Made by a program: the position numbers and the translations under genes. From NCBI GenBank assembly GCA_019454105.1, contig CP075364.1, positions 499,362 through 563,361 on the forward strand: a stretch of 64,000 nucleotides of DNA. Direction: 5' to 3'. The notes beneath the pieces were generated by a model, which saw nothing but the letters and a program-made list of their open reading frames with translations, did no database searches and was not told the DNA's origin. Positions 55,711 through 61,870 of this stretch are shown piece after piece. Every line of letters starts with the position of its first letter. Positions within the stretch are counted from its first letter, which is position 1. Origin of the DNA: Fimbriimonadaceae bacterium (GTDB lineage: Bacteria > Armatimonadota > Fimbriimonadia > Fimbriimonadales > Fimbriimonadaceae).

Positions 55711-56304
55711 GTGGTGGGGAAGAGCAAATTGCTGACTGTTGGCAGCATCGTCATGATCGTTGGGCCAGACGGCCACGCGAGGGCCACTGCGAAGGTCCTC
55801 AAGAAGGCCGAATCCTTGTGCCTCGTCGAATGCGACCATTTCAACTCGGCAACGACCGGTGAGACCGTCCTGATTGTCGTTGAGGACGATCAGGTGGGTA
55901 CCGGCCTGAAAGTCCGGGTCAAGCTAGCCGCCGGTCGACGACTGACGCTTGAGCTGGCAACAAAGCCCGACCACTTCATGGTGGAAAGAGTCGAGACCCG
56001 GTTTCATGGACGGGGATCGATCGCGACCGTCGCGATACCGAGCGGGAACGTTCGACTGACGGTGCTGGAGGTCACCTCTACGGGGTTCCACTTCAAGGCC
56101 AACGACGCGCTGCCTGTGAACAGGGAACTGGCCCTGACGATCCTCATCAAAGGACAGTATCAGGTCATCAAGGGCCATGTCGTTCATCTGAGCGAAGTGG
56201 GAAACAGGGTCTACACCGGTGTCGTGGCCCTCAACTTTTCATCGCGCCTTGACCGGAGGCTTTGGGAAACAGCCTTGGACTGCGCTGGCTACGAGACCTC
56301 ATGA
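55711..56304 (+). CDS. PilZ-like domain protein
   Basis: The 197-residue protein starts at GTG (55711). The first ~95 residues are beta-rich (VLIVVEDDQVGTGLKVRVKL). The second part has the order of a PilZ domain, VERVETRFHGRGS, then VLEVTSTGFHFKANDALPVN and VVHLSEVGNRVYTGVVALNF, although the RxxxR and (D/N)xSxxG motifs are not clear. It may therefore not bind c-di-GMP. It is divergent from trxB and next to a flagellar cluster. Confidence 0.6.
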   Translation: MVGKSKLLTVGSIVMIVGPDGHARATAKVLKKAESLCLVECDHFNSATTGETVLIVVEDDQVGTGLKVRVKLAAGRRLTLELATKPDHFMVERVETRFHGRGSIATVAIPSGNVRLTVLEVTSTGFHFKANDALPVNRELALTILIKGQYQVIKGHVVHLSEVGNRVYTGVVALNFSSRLDRRLWETALDCAGYETS

Positions 56305-56926
56305 CCGACCAGGTCAAGACTCCTAGCCCGACCAGCAAGCCTGGCTCCGGGGCGGCGACAGGATCGTCCGGGACAAATCCAACAAAGCCGGGCGCGAAAC
56401 TGAGGCCGTCCCACGATTGGTCGGCCAAGATCCGTCCGCTCAAGCCCGTCTGAGCAGCCGTCCAGGATCCGAGGGTCGAGCCGCTGCTCACCCAGTAGCT
56501 CCAGTAACCCGTGTTCCATCCCTCACCGTATCTGTCCTGATCCTCGATGGCTGTCGCACCGTCGCTTGGCTGGCCGACGAGCCAACCATCCACGGGCCAT
56601 GACGTCCCGTCGCTCAGAGGCAGACCGTTTCGATTGGTGTCATATCCCAGTCCGACCAAGGCCGTCCCGAAGGAAAACGAGGCGATCTTGGCGAAGACGA
56701 GCGGATCGGACGTGACGATCGCCCGGAGCATGTCCTCACCGGTCGCCGTCCCATCGAACCGGAAGCCCCACGCCAGGGCCGGAGGCGACTTTTGGTCTTT
56801 CCAATCCACGACCAGAGCGGCCCGGTTGCTGCCGGTTCCGGCCCAAAAAGTGATGTCATTGAATCCAAAAGCTTCGGCGTTCGAAGTGGAAACAAGGGCG
56901 AGCGAGAGGATGGTGGTTCTAATCAT
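56231..56926 (-). CDS. PEP-CTERM protein
   Basis: The start at 56926 gives a signal peptide (MIRTTILSLALVSTSNAEAF). The C-terminus carries APEPGLLVGLGVLTWSVMRSRSQRS: a PEP motif, a hydrophobic helix and basic residues, the PEP-CTERM sorting signal. A further ~17 residues follow it, which is longer than usual. The middle is an unrecognised beta-rich domain (FGFNDITFWAGTGSNRAALV). It is last in a three-gene run and overlaps the convergent PilZ-like gene by 74 bases. Confidence 0.75.
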   Translation of the reverse strand: MIRTTILSLALVSTSNAEAFGFNDITFWAGTGSNRAALVVDWKDQKSPPALAWGFRFDGTATGEDMLRAIVTSDPLVFAKIASFSFGTALVGLGYDTNRNGLPLSDGTSWPVDGWLVGQPSDGATAIEDQDRYGEGWNTGYWSYWVSSGSTLGSWTAAQTGLSGRILADQSWDGLSFAPGFVGFVPDDPVAAPEPGLLVGLGVLTWSVMRSRSQRSPRLFPKASGQGAMKS

Positions 56927-56934
56927 CAGGTTGC

Positions 56935-57729
56935 CTAGTGATCTCGTGGTTGTTGCCGGATGGGCCAGGTTGGCCGTCCGACCCGGGAAAAGCCGTCGAC
57001 TTCGCTCCAAGAGCCAGTGACCTTGATAAATCGGATCGACTTAAACCCGCTTGGGGCCAGGTCGAACGCGCACCCACCTGCCGAGCCTTGAAGTAGGTCG
57101 CTGACGTCCGCAAGCGAGAGCCCCACGAGCAGGGAACGTTGCCAACCAGGGGGCACCGGCTTAGTCCAATCGCTCTCGGGCCCCCAGCCCTTAGTCTGAC
57201 GGTTCCAAAGGTGGGCCATTGTCGGCCAGTACGCGTCGGCCCCGGAGTAAGGGCCAACAGGATAAGTGTGCCAAACGACACCGTCCGGGCTGACGCTCAC
57301 AGCCGCTGGCTCGATGAAGTCCCCTCCAGCCGTCACCCTGACGTTCGCCAGATCTGTGTCCCAGGACACTCCCCGGTCACAGCCGATCACGGGGTTGCCA
57401 TAAACGATGAAGTCATAGCCGTACCAATGACGGGGGTCGTTCATGATGGGTGGGTCAAAGCTGACCGTAATGTGGCCGCCGGGCCGGACAGTGACGACCA
57501 CGGGGCGACCGTCGGGGTCGGTGTCCCAAGCCGGGTAGCCCCACGAGACGGCGACCCTCTCCTCTGGACCACCATTGACGACGTCTCGGATCCATGTCGC
57601 GGGTTTGCCGAGGACCGCACCCGGGTCGCCGTAGACGCCGAAGCCGAGATCCGAGTAGCTGACGACCGACGCCGCGAATCGCGGGTCTGGAGCCGCCAAG
57701 AGCAGAAAGGTCAGGCTAGTCAAGGTCAT
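56935..57729 (-). CDS. Exported surface protein of unknown function
   Basis: The start at 57729 (MTLTSLTFLLLAAPDPRFA) gives a signal peptide; the frame's earlier ATG at 57936 lies in the preceding gene. The mature protein is rich in aromatic and Gly residues (SYSDLGFGVYGDPGAVLGKP, HWYGYDFIVYGNPVIGCDRG, FDLAPSGFKSIRFIKVTG), a galactose-binding-like or calcium-dependent surface fold. I do not know the substrate. It overlaps the pseudopilin stop by 14 bases and is followed by the PEP-CTERM gene, so one operon is likely. Confidence 0.7.
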   Translation of the reverse strand: MTLTSLTFLLLAAPDPRFAASVVSYSDLGFGVYGDPGAVLGKPATWIRDVVNGGPEERVAVSWGYPAWDTDPDGRPVVVTVRPGGHITVSFDPPIMNDPRHWYGYDFIVYGNPVIGCDRGVSWDTDLANVRVTAGGDFIEPAAVSVSPDGVVWHTYPVGPYSGADAYWPTMAHLWNRQTKGWGPESDWTKPVPPGWQRSLLVGLSLADVSDLLQGSAGGCAFDLAPSGFKSIRFIKVTGSWSEVDGFSRVGRPTWPIRQQPRDH

Positions 57730-58423
57730 AAGCGCTGTCGTCCGAAGACAAGGAGCCGACGCCGGGTTCGTCAGCAACGGGCAGATGAACGGTTCGGGAG
57801 CCTTGGCTCCGTCCGTCGGCCCAATGGACGTTGGCCGTACCTTGGTGACGGAAGTGAACCTTTCCGGCAACAAAGAGCGGGTCGCTGGGCGCCCTGAGGA
57901 AATTGTGGGCCCGGACGGGCGACCCAAACCCCGCATCGGCGAAGGCGACAGTGCCCGAGGGATCGCTGATCTCGCTCAAAGCAACGGGGAGTGTGCCCAT
58001 CGCCGGGTCACCGCCAAGATAAGTCGTGTTGTAGGCGAATCCCGTCGTAGGGCGCCCCCAAGCCTCTCCATGGAAGGTCGGGCACTGCTGGATCTCGCCA
58101 GTGCGGATATAGGGGCCCAGGAGCCCAAGCGTCACGAGGACCGTCTCTTGGCGTCTGACAGTGAAGTCCCAAGCCACCGCCGTCCGACCGCGATCCAGCG
58201 AGTAGTGACTAGGGGCGCACCGGTCGCTGTGGTCTCCAGCATAGAGGAGCCACGCGATCCCGATTTGGCGCAGGTTGGACGAGCAAGCGGTCTTGTGAGA
58301 GGCTTCCCGCGCACTCGTGAGGGCAGGGAACAGCATGGCTGCCAGCACCATCGAGACGCAGAGGACGACGAGCATCTCAACGAGGCTGAATCCGGCGTTG
58401 CCGCGGGTCTTGCTAGTCTTCAT
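57716..58423 (-). CDS. Type IV pilin-like (pseudopilin) protein
   Basis: The start at 58423 gives MKTSKTRGNAGFSLVEMLVV, the prepilin cleavage site G-FSLVE followed by a hydrophobic helix (LCVSMVLAAMLFPALTSARE). The globular part contains ACSSNLRQIGIAWLLYAGDH and HFRHQGTANVHWADGR, as in planctomycete/armatimonad pseudopilins of the DUF1559 type. It is the first gene after the cobalamin riboswitch. Confidence 0.85.
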   Translation of the reverse strand: MKTSKTRGNAGFSLVEMLVVLCVSMVLAAMLFPALTSAREASHKTACSSNLRQIGIAWLLYAGDHSDRCAPSHYSLDRGRTAVAWDFTVRRQETVLVTLGLLGPYIRTGEIQQCPTFHGEAWGRPTTGFAYNTTYLGGDPAMGTLPVALSEISDPSGTVAFADAGFGSPVRAHNFLRAPSDPLFVAGKVHFRHQGTANVHWADGRSQGSRTVHLPVADEPGVGSLSSDDSAYDLD

Positions 58424-58484
58424 GGCGCTTCGTATTGCTCCAGGTTTCAAGGAGCAAATGGACGTGCGCCGGTCCGAAGCCTTC

Positions 58485-58622
58485 GCCCGTCGCCTCTGCT
58501 CGGAGGCGCCTGGTTCCCTTCAGCCGTTGGGCGGGCACTCGGGCTCGAGGACAAACTCCTCACACCGTTGCGGCACAGCGCCGGACTTTCACCGGACTTC
58601 CCCCGCTTCATCCCATCACTCG
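58485..58622 (-). ncRNA. Cobalamin riboswitch
   Basis: On the minus strand the region reads, in order, GGGGGAAGTCCGGTGAAAGT, CCGGCGCTGTGCCGCAACGG, and later GAGCCCGAGTGCCCGCCC, the conserved core of cobalamin riboswitches (the GGTGAAAGTCC, CCGCAACGG and GAGCCCGAGTxCCCGCC blocks; plus-strand positions 58580-58595, 58561-58574 and 58529-58546). A hairpin CGCCTC/GAGGCG follows. It is ~60-100 bp ahead of the pseudopilin start. Expected effect: repression of the three-gene operon when B12 is present. Confidence 0.85.
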
Positions 58623-58725
58623 GACGGGATCCAAAAGCTTGACTAACTCTCGCATATCACACATATGTTTGTCAAGGCCCAGAAGAATCCCAGATCCCTT
58701 GCGGACAATTTAGTAAAGTTTGAGC

Positions 58726-59079
58726 ATGGCTGCGGAGGCCCGAAGGACCAGCGTGACTGGGTTTGTCGCCATCAACACGATTCAGTGCCGTCCCGACTAT
58801 TGCGAGCGGTTCGAGTGCCTCTTCTGCACCCGGGCGCACGCCATCGACTCGGCTCCAGGTTTTTGCCATATGTACGTCTTGCGTCCGTCTGCCGAAGGTG
58901 AGCCCTATTTGGTCGTGAGCCATTGGGAATCTGAAGACGCCTTCCGAGCTTGGGTCGGCTCTCCTGCGTTCCACGCGGGCCACAGCCGAGCCTTTGCCGA
59001 TCTCCAAGCCGCGAAGGAACGCGGTGAGGAGCCACCTATGTCGAGCCAGTTCAGGACTTACTCGATCCTCACCCGGTAG
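58726..59079 (+). CDS. Antibiotic biosynthesis monooxygenase (ABM) domain protein
   Basis: The 117-residue protein, ATG at 58726 (a TTG two codons earlier is possible), has the ABM/IsdG-like dimeric barrel pattern: FVAINTIQCRPDYCERFEC, APGFCHMYVLRP and YLVVSHWESEDAFRAWVGSP, then FHAGHSRAF. IsdG-type members degrade heme; others act on quinones. The conserved His of heme oxygenases may be in FHAGH. The reaction is not certain. Confidence 0.8.
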   Translation: MAAEARRTSVTGFVAINTIQCRPDYCERFECLFCTRAHAIDSAPGFCHMYVLRPSAEGEPYLVVSHWESEDAFRAWVGSPAFHAGHSRAFADLQAAKERGEEPPMSSQFRTYSILTR

Positions 59080-61279: not shown

Positions 61280-61870
61280 TTACTTGCGGCGGCGTCGGGC
61301 GACAACAGCGGCAAGGCCGAGACCGAGAGCGGTCATTGTTGCCGGCTCTGGCACTGCAGAAGACGTGAACGATGACGTCATTTGAAGTTCGTTTCCGACC
61401 AGCGTTTGGTTAGCGAAGGCGAACGCGAAGGCGAACTGGTCGAGCCCGCCCGGGATGATCGGGCCGCTGAAGTTGATGTCGTTGCCGACCAACTCTGCGC
61501 CGCCGAACGACGTCACGTTGTAGGAAGCTGACGAGAAGCTGATCGTGAAGAGCGGATTGTTGGTGCTATCGAAGAAGTCGATGTTGCCAGCACCGGCAAG
61601 CCCGTTCACCACATTGATCGGATTTCGAACCATGAACTTCGCGTCCACGAAGTCCGGTGCTCCAAGTCCCGGGGTCTGAAGGAAGAGCCCGGTGGTCATC
61701 CAGCCGCCAGTCAGCTGCCCCGTGTTCCCAATTCCGCCGCTAAAGTTGAAGAGCGGGTTCGCAGGACCCGAGCTCGGGTCAGCGAAAGTGATCAGCGTGA
61801 ACGCAGAAGCCGCCCCTGCAAAGGAGGCCACCGTCGCAAACGCTGCGAATCGCATAATGGTCAGTTTCAT
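61280..61870 (-). CDS. PEP-CTERM sorting domain protein
   Basis: The start at 61870 gives the signal peptide MRFAAFATVASFAGAASAF. The C-terminus SAVPEPATMTALGLGLAAVV ARRRRK has the VPEP motif, the helix and the basic tail that direct proteins to exosortase processing. The 196-residue product has a beta-rich centre (LQTPGLGAPDFVDAKFMVRN, SASYNVTSFGGAELVGNDIN). Such proteins are extracellular or surface bound; the specific role is unknown. Confidence 0.85.
   Translation of the reverse strand: MKLTIMRFAAFATVASFAGAASAFTLITFADPSSGPANPLFNFSGGIGNTGQLTGGWMTTGLFLQTPGLGAPDFVDAKFMVRNPINVVNGLAGAGNIDFFDSTNNPLFTISFSSASYNVTSFGGAELVGNDINFSGPIIPGGLDQFAFAFAFANQTLVGNELQMTSSFTSSAVPEPATMTALGLGLAAVVARRRRK

Follow-up and report, generated by a model that had tools for sequence, protein, structure and literature searches.

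How diderm bacteria that lack TonB receptors acquire vitamin B12 is an unsettled question, and the locus described here raises it in a concrete form: what is a cobalamin riboswitch doing ahead of a prepilin gene and two exported proteins? The locus lies in a window of 64,000 nucleotides (contig CP075364.1, positions 499,362 to 563,361) from a Fimbriimonadaceae bacterium of the phylum Armatimonadota, whose genome is one contig of 2.74 Mb with a completeness of 99%. Downstream of the riboswitch, three genes formed a tight operon on the minus strand, the prepilin P0001 followed by P0002 and P0003. Most probably this is a B12-repressed operon for the capture of corrinoids at the cell surface. Two independent lines, the homology of P0002 to BtuH by sequence profiles and the predicted transcobalamin/intrinsic-factor fold of P0003, support the surface capture of B12 that an earlier note on this DNA had proposed. 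For B12 acquisition without TonB receptors, a concrete and conserved candidate is at hand in this gene set, which is marked by a riboswitch and comprises an apparently dedicated pilin and two surface proteins that putatively bind B12. The features of the locus are as follows.

58525..58618, minus strand: aptamer core of the cobalamin riboswitch, RF01689 (adenosylcobalamin type II, AdoCbl-II), by cmscan and covariation
58512-58650, minus strand: RF00174 match to the same leader, by covariance model
58491..58508, minus strand: conserved hairpin CGCCUC-CGAGCA-GAGGCG directly 3' of the aptamer, by alignment of 30 leaders
58435..58457, minus strand: hairpin UUGCUCC-UUGAAACCU-GGAGCAA, candidate expression platform, by comparison of leaders with shuffles
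57716..58423, minus strand: P0001, putative type IV prepilin or pseudopilin of DUF1559 type with the C-terminal tail GSLSSDDSAYDLD, by Pfam and tail pattern
56935..57729, minus strand: P0002, putative exported protein of the cell surface, in the family of the BtuH B12-binding domain, by profile comparison via relatives
56231..56926, minus strand: P0003, putative exported PEP-CTERM-type protein with a predicted transcobalamin/intrinsic-factor beta-domain (beta-grasp) fold, by AlphaFold2 and Foldseek

The cobalamin riboswitch that the earlier note had read on the minus strand was borne out by the covariance-model search that it had suggested as a check. RF01689 was placed at 58618-58525 by cmscan with 44.9 bits (gathering threshold 36.5, E=1.5e-7), and a whole-genome search with RF00174 returned one site only, the leader in the window, with 39.8 bits against a cut-off of 31.5. 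Across 30 aligned leaders of the host's class, 10 of the 18 stated pairs had changes on both sides (46 cells), which exceeded every slid version and was reached by one of 500 shuffles, and 88.9% of the cells were pairing, compared with 19-48% when the 3' partners were slid. The hairpin at 58508-58491 showed a near-invariant CGAGCA loop and both-sided changes at all six stem pairs (6/6) in these leaders; it could be the P13/L13 regulatory element, a label given by analogy with known cobalamin riboswitches. At 58457-58435, the Shine-Dalgarno-like GGAG ahead of the start codon would be paired within another hairpin. Comparable Shine-Dalgarno hairpins were present in 17 of 37 leaders, compared with 6.6 expected from shuffles, which points to control of the operon at the level of translation. 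Established cobalamin riboswitches are switched off by B12, and the same OFF direction is assumed for the riboswitch of the window. A consensus sigma-70 site was not found in a promoter scan.

The gene arrangement was also as the earlier note had described it, since the coordinates and the Pfam results gave a prepilin-type gene followed by two exported proteins with an overlap and an 8-bp spacing. The start of P0002 falls inside the 3' end of P0001 (57729 vs 57716), and 8 bp separate the stop of P0002 from the start of P0003. In P0001, both PF07963 (N_methyl, 22.3 vs 21.2 bits) and PF07596 (DUF1559, 26.9 vs 23.3 bits) were above their cut-offs.

P0002 had no Pfam or NCBIfam assignment, and its family was reached through its relatives. 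The relative L088, a fusion of a propeller and a P0002-type domain, matched 8blw (BtuG1, 4e-5) and 7biz (BtuH2, 0.003), both in the BtuH domain. Profiles were made of the P0002 subfamily (A1), of a wider set (A3) and of six L088-like relatives (A4). Comparison of A4 with the whole PDB gave two entries only at E<1, 8blw (BtuG1, 5.1e-20) and 7biz (BtuH2, 8.3e-13), and A1 aligned with A4 over 191 columns with a probability of 99.4% (E=7.5e-22). The A3 profile also matched 8blw, at 0.003. By this chain of intermediate relatives, P0002 is classed as a member of the BtuH B12-binding-domain family. The C-terminal domain of BtuH2 binds B12, with Tyr510, Trp577, Trp511, His476, Asn399 and Gln333 as contact residues, and the protein brings a fitness gain under B12 limitation (PMC8941943); the alignment is too divergent for a safe placing of these residues in P0002. 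BtuG1 has a fused BtuH domain (PMC10404256). When the narrow A1 profile was compared with the PDB, only single-chain variable fragments were matched, and they were dismissed as chance.

The AlphaFold2 model of P0003 had a predicted local distance difference test (pLDDT) score of 85.8, and Foldseek gave intrinsic factor (3kq4, probability 0.99), 3u7z (0.98) and the transcobalamin beta domain (5no0, 0.98) as the best PDB folds, with probabilities of 0.97-0.99 across these three and 2pmv. The isolated domains 3u7z, which we take to be of the DUF4430 type, and 5no0 were matched with template-modelling (TM) scores of 0.67-0.68 (0.68 on the target for 5no0). Among the 19 top matches, 18 were of intrinsic factor, transcobalamin or DUF4430 type, and all the probabilities listed for a negative control, the same model against viral structures, were 0.07 or lower. 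The fold predicted for P0003 is thus that of the beta domain of transcobalamin and intrinsic factor. A 2007 study predicted B12 scavenging at the cell surface for bacterial members of this beta-grasp clade, which planctomycetes also carry (PMC1796856). Two profiles of the P0003 family, A2 and A5, matched nothing in the PDB except the PEP-CTERM-like tail of a deposited peroxidase and were not useful.

The PEP-CTERM signal that the earlier note had seen on the last protein stood at the level of the family. The PEP motif was invariant in the P0003 family, PF07589 was matched by 9 of 15 members (E<0.1), and one exosortase was found in the host genome (PF09721, E=1.7e-47); judged by its relatives, P0003 is a PEP-CTERM protein. 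An unusual extra basic tail follows its PEP-CTERM. A PilZ-like open reading frame (assigned by eye; 55711-56304, plus strand) converges with P0003, and the 74-bp 3' overlap of the two contains the basic tail.

Several results weigh against capture of corrinoids at the surface. P0002 alone had no sequence match in the PDB, its AlphaFold2 model (pLDDT 91) had weak matches of the CBM32/AlyQ type in Foldseek (best E 0.02), and BtuH2 (7biz) was absent among the 50 matches listed for the model. For these reasons, P0002 is tied to BtuH through intermediate sequences. AlyQ is a modest DALI neighbour of BtuH2 (PMC8941943), but being a neighbour of both BtuH2 and the P0002 model proves nothing. The Foldseek E-values of P0003 were weak (0.02-0.3), and Pfam DUF4430 was detected by sequence in none of 15 family members and none of 10 further relatives. 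Because of these E-values and the lack of a linking sequence profile, P0003 is a fold match with unproven homology. Its own PEP-CTERM was below the curated cut-offs (TIGR02595, 11.6 vs 16 bits; no Pfam match), and to that extent the earlier claim about this signal did not stand. The BtuC-type and BtuF-type genes of the host were single, unlinked and not controlled by the riboswitch. The weak point of all is the role of the pilin.

Some of these parts would also suit an operon that produces adhesins under B12 starvation and ties the cell to B12 producers, with no import of its own. A prepilin with exported proteins is typical of adhesion, and CBM32-like folds ranked with the best neighbours of P0002 in Foldseek, albeit as weak matches. 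However, two relatives of different B12-binding folds in one operon would not be expected for adhesins, and the homology to BtuH is specific. We consider such adhesion unlikely.

To what extent the arrangement is conserved was surveyed in 113 genomes of the host's class and 291 genomes of the phylum. RF01689 was present in 69 of the 113 class genomes, and 52 riboswitch loci of the class, the window locus included, were inspected. The first gene after the riboswitch was a prepilin of the P0001 kind at 43 of the 52, a count that is not one of independent trials, since the loci share ancestry. The other first genes were a beta-propeller protein of PEP-CTERM type (five loci, one with a fused P0002-type domain), P0002 itself (one), a ribonucleotide-reductase-like gene (one) and unclear genes (two). 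Relatives of P0002 were found in 13 of the 113 genomes, with a cobalamin riboswitch upstream at 12 of the 13 loci; the remaining locus is cut off by a contig end within the prepilin. In some of the class relatives, the second gene encodes DUF4465 (E=1e-50) and is followed by the P0002-type gene. DUF4465 is the BtuJ family, for which B12 binding has been shown (PMC13398666, PMC12751083). Since DUF4465, the propeller and the P0002-type proteins all occur downstream of it, the riboswitch of the class has three or four different families of surface proteins under its control, for which B12 binding is either known or predicted.

In the phylum as a whole, 57 of the 291 genomes had members of the P0002 superfamily. 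A cobalamin riboswitch was present at 15 of 20 further phylum loci, and most of these 15 also had a prepilin and a P0003-type gene. A scan of species genomes gave 220 relatives of P0002, of which the best 78 loci were retained; these best 78 belonged to Planctomycetota (Kuenenia included), Verrucomicrobiota, Kiritimatiellae, Lentisphaerae, Desulfobacterales and others. No plasmid record carried P0002. A P0002-type gene was called at 76 loci; at most two genes away from it on the same strand stood a prepilin at 58 of them and a P0003-type gene at 48. Outside Armatimonadota, the gene order was mostly P0003-P0002-prepilin, the reverse of that in the window, and of the 18 loci tested that do not belong to named Armatimonadota, 15 had a cobalamin riboswitch. 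P0003- and P0002-type domains were fused in several Verrucomicrobiota and two Armatimonadota. The trio is conserved in Armatimonadota, and with a changed arrangement it is also conserved in Planctomycetota and Verrucomicrobiota.

This conservation bears on whether a pilin and surface proteins unrelated to B12 could have fallen under the riboswitch by accident. Prepilins are abundant in the host genome, with about 44 prepilin-like loci in total, which would favour an accident; nevertheless, because there are only about 44 such loci genome-wide, a prepilin beside the sole riboswitch is not expected by chance. The arrangement also recurs in dozens of genomes of several phyla with differing gene orders, and each of the two partner proteins can be matched to a family or fold that binds B12. 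Chance positioning is already strongly disfavoured by the conservation and is held to be extremely improbable.

Other riboswitches were seen near related genes. At two Desulfobacterota-type loci (L216:1083-1499 and L230:3405-3854), cyclic di-GMP-I (c-di-GMP-I) and cobalamin riboswitches stand in tandem before P0002-/P0003-type genes, a possible two-input switch for surface state and B12. In an Armatimonadota genome, two adjacent riboswitches of the c-di-GMP-I type (L138:14715-15017, minus strand) lie a few kb from the B12 module.

What the pilin contributes is best approached through its C-terminus. The tail follows the pattern GxLSxDxSxYDL (GSLSSDDSAYDLD in P0001, GFLSPDNSxYDL in planctomycetes), and one pattern found it in 17 of 17 module prepilins of named Armatimonadota and in 38 of 43 other module prepilins, compared with none of the 24 P0001 paralogues of the host genome with recovered reading frames. 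Judged by this motif, the P0001-type prepilin is a dedicated one with a private tail, and the motif could be used to annotate many hypothetical proteins in poorly studied phyla. Another type of riboswitch-linked prepilin in the class (L082, L084, L092, L095 and others) usually stands alone and ends in a LGEIDRDGDLTTDELFDL-like sequence. These lone prepilins suggest that the conserved minimum of the regulon is the prepilin. Their LGEIDRDGDLTTDELFDL tail resembles a calcium-binding sequence.

A dedicated tail and the first position at most riboswitch loci of the class are what might be seen if a retractable pilus or pseudopilus pulled the corrinoid, or a loaded surface protein, through an outer-membrane secretin and so replaced BtuB. 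Such TonB-independent uptake is a special case of surface capture and not separate from it. The TonB plug (PF07715) was not detected in the host genome, and none of the 13 class genomes that carry P0002 had it, compared with 39 of all 113 in the class (Fisher p=0.004), and the host genome encodes two secretins. In two relatives without a prepilin, one of them a WOR-3 genome, a TonB-dependent receptor adjoins the P0002-type gene, which suggests that the prepilin system replaces BtuB. However, the absence of TonB may reflect other routes, such as porins or divergent receptors, the plug was present in 6 of 44 prepilin-type genomes, and no pilus motor gene was linked to the operon. Additionally, the propeller-type genomes have a single TonB-type receptor, which lies in a two-component locus without a link to B12, so that the TonB correlation may be merely phylogenetic. 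This receptor was considered as the BtuB of an alternation between prepilin and BtuB and was dropped, as its neighbours were a response regulator, a binding protein and a histidine kinase, with no cobalamin riboswitch; its place in an unrelated locus weakens the exchange of prepilin and TonB inside the class. In L189, L190, L191 and L192, which belong to one family, the conserved locus comprises the response regulator, the TonB-type receptor of about 630 amino acids, a small periplasmic-type protein and the histidine kinase, and no other TonB-type receptor was found in those genomes. Uptake driven by a pilus is thus regarded as doubtful. It is equally tentative to propose that a TonB-independent route for B12, made of the GxLSxDxSxYDL-tailed pilin, BtuH-type and transcobalamin-type proteins and a pilus secretin, is widespread in Armatimonadota, Planctomycetota and Verrucomicrobiota. 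If there is no pilus-mediated uptake, display or organisation of the capture proteins may be what the pilin does.

For B12-repressed capture at the surface, the mechanism that we infer involves ligand binding, the OFF direction, surface display, a role for the pilin and a passage through the outer membrane. Under B12 scarcity, the riboswitch without its ligand would leave the mRNA translatable, and all three proteins would be made. P0002, of BtuH type, and P0003, of transcobalamin-beta type, would be displayed outside and bind the corrinoid, with P0003 anchored through its PEP-CTERM by the exosortase. The two possibly act as a pair, since their relatives are fused in Verrucomicrobiota and some Armatimonadota. 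The prepilin might belong to a type IV pilus or pseudopilus as a dedicated subunit and carry, position or deliver the capture proteins. The captured corrinoid would then pass to a BtuF/BtuC-type ATP-binding cassette importer encoded elsewhere in the genome, where one BtuC-type permease gene and one BtuF-type gene were found. When B12 is plentiful, the ligand would stabilise the aptamer and the 3' hairpin, the Shine-Dalgarno would stay hidden and translation would stop.

Two proteins with a B12-binding domain were found in the host genome, one of them MetH-like by context (assigned by inspection). At L103:4007-4969 (minus strand; genome 482099-482425), an ArsR-like helix-turn-helix protein with a B12-binding domain is possibly a corrinoid-dependent regulator or a light sensor. 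In the window, a small open reading frame on the plus strand (58726-59079) diverges from the riboswitch at about 110 bp; by eye it resembles a monooxygenase/HmoB-type (ABM) domain, and it might conceivably be linked to tetrapyrrole metabolism. A second PEP-CTERM protein (61280-61870, minus strand), which ends in VPEPATMTALGLGLAAVVARRRRK, is not under riboswitch control.

In open-licence papers on cobalamin riboswitches with pilins, prepilins, PEP-CTERM, DUF1559 or Armatimonadetes, this gene set was not found described. It would bring together, within a single bacterial operon, a fold like that of transcobalamin and a domain of BtuH type, and would extend the BtuH-type proteins well past the gut Bacteroidetes. 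The individual parts can each be compared with known families. The RNA has the conserved core, helices and sequence blocks of AdoCbl-II (RF01689) but differs in the genes controlled and in the conserved 3' hairpin with the CGAGCA loop and the Shine-Dalgarno hairpin of the class leaders. P0001 resembles the DUF1559 prepilins and type IV pilins in its N-terminal methylation motif and DUF1559 start, both above cut-off, whereas its private tail, shared across phyla, and its linkage to a cobalamin riboswitch set it apart. P0003 shares its predicted fold with the beta domain of transcobalamin and intrinsic factor and with bacterial SLBB/DUF4430 proteins (PMC1796856); unlike transcobalamin and intrinsic factor, it has a BtuH-type partner instead of the alpha/alpha toroid, and it has no Pfam DUF4430 match.

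The earlier note had called surface proteins an uncommon target for this riboswitch, which was right in part: Bacteroides is known to have B12-binding proteins at its surface under riboswitch control (PMC8941943, PMC10404256, PMC12751083), and what is unusual here is that a pilin is the partner and a TonB receptor is missing. The closest known system is the BtuB-BtuG-BtuH-BtuJ locus of Bacteroides thetaiotaomicron, with which the operon shares the cobalamin riboswitch and a BtuH-type surface protein, the P0002 family (PMC8941943, PMC10404256, PMC12751083). Relatives of the window add a DUF4465/BtuJ-type protein and, in L088, a fusion that mirrors the propeller and BtuH architecture of BtuG1. 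In contrast to the Bacteroides loci, the operon, and the genome as far as detected, has no TonB receptor, its first gene is a prepilin, anchoring is apparently by PEP-CTERM and exosortase instead of as lipoproteins, and there is an extra transcobalamin-beta-like protein. Compared with that system, it is thus new that the partners include a pilin and a transcobalamin-type protein, that anchoring is apparently by exosortase and that a TonB receptor is missing.

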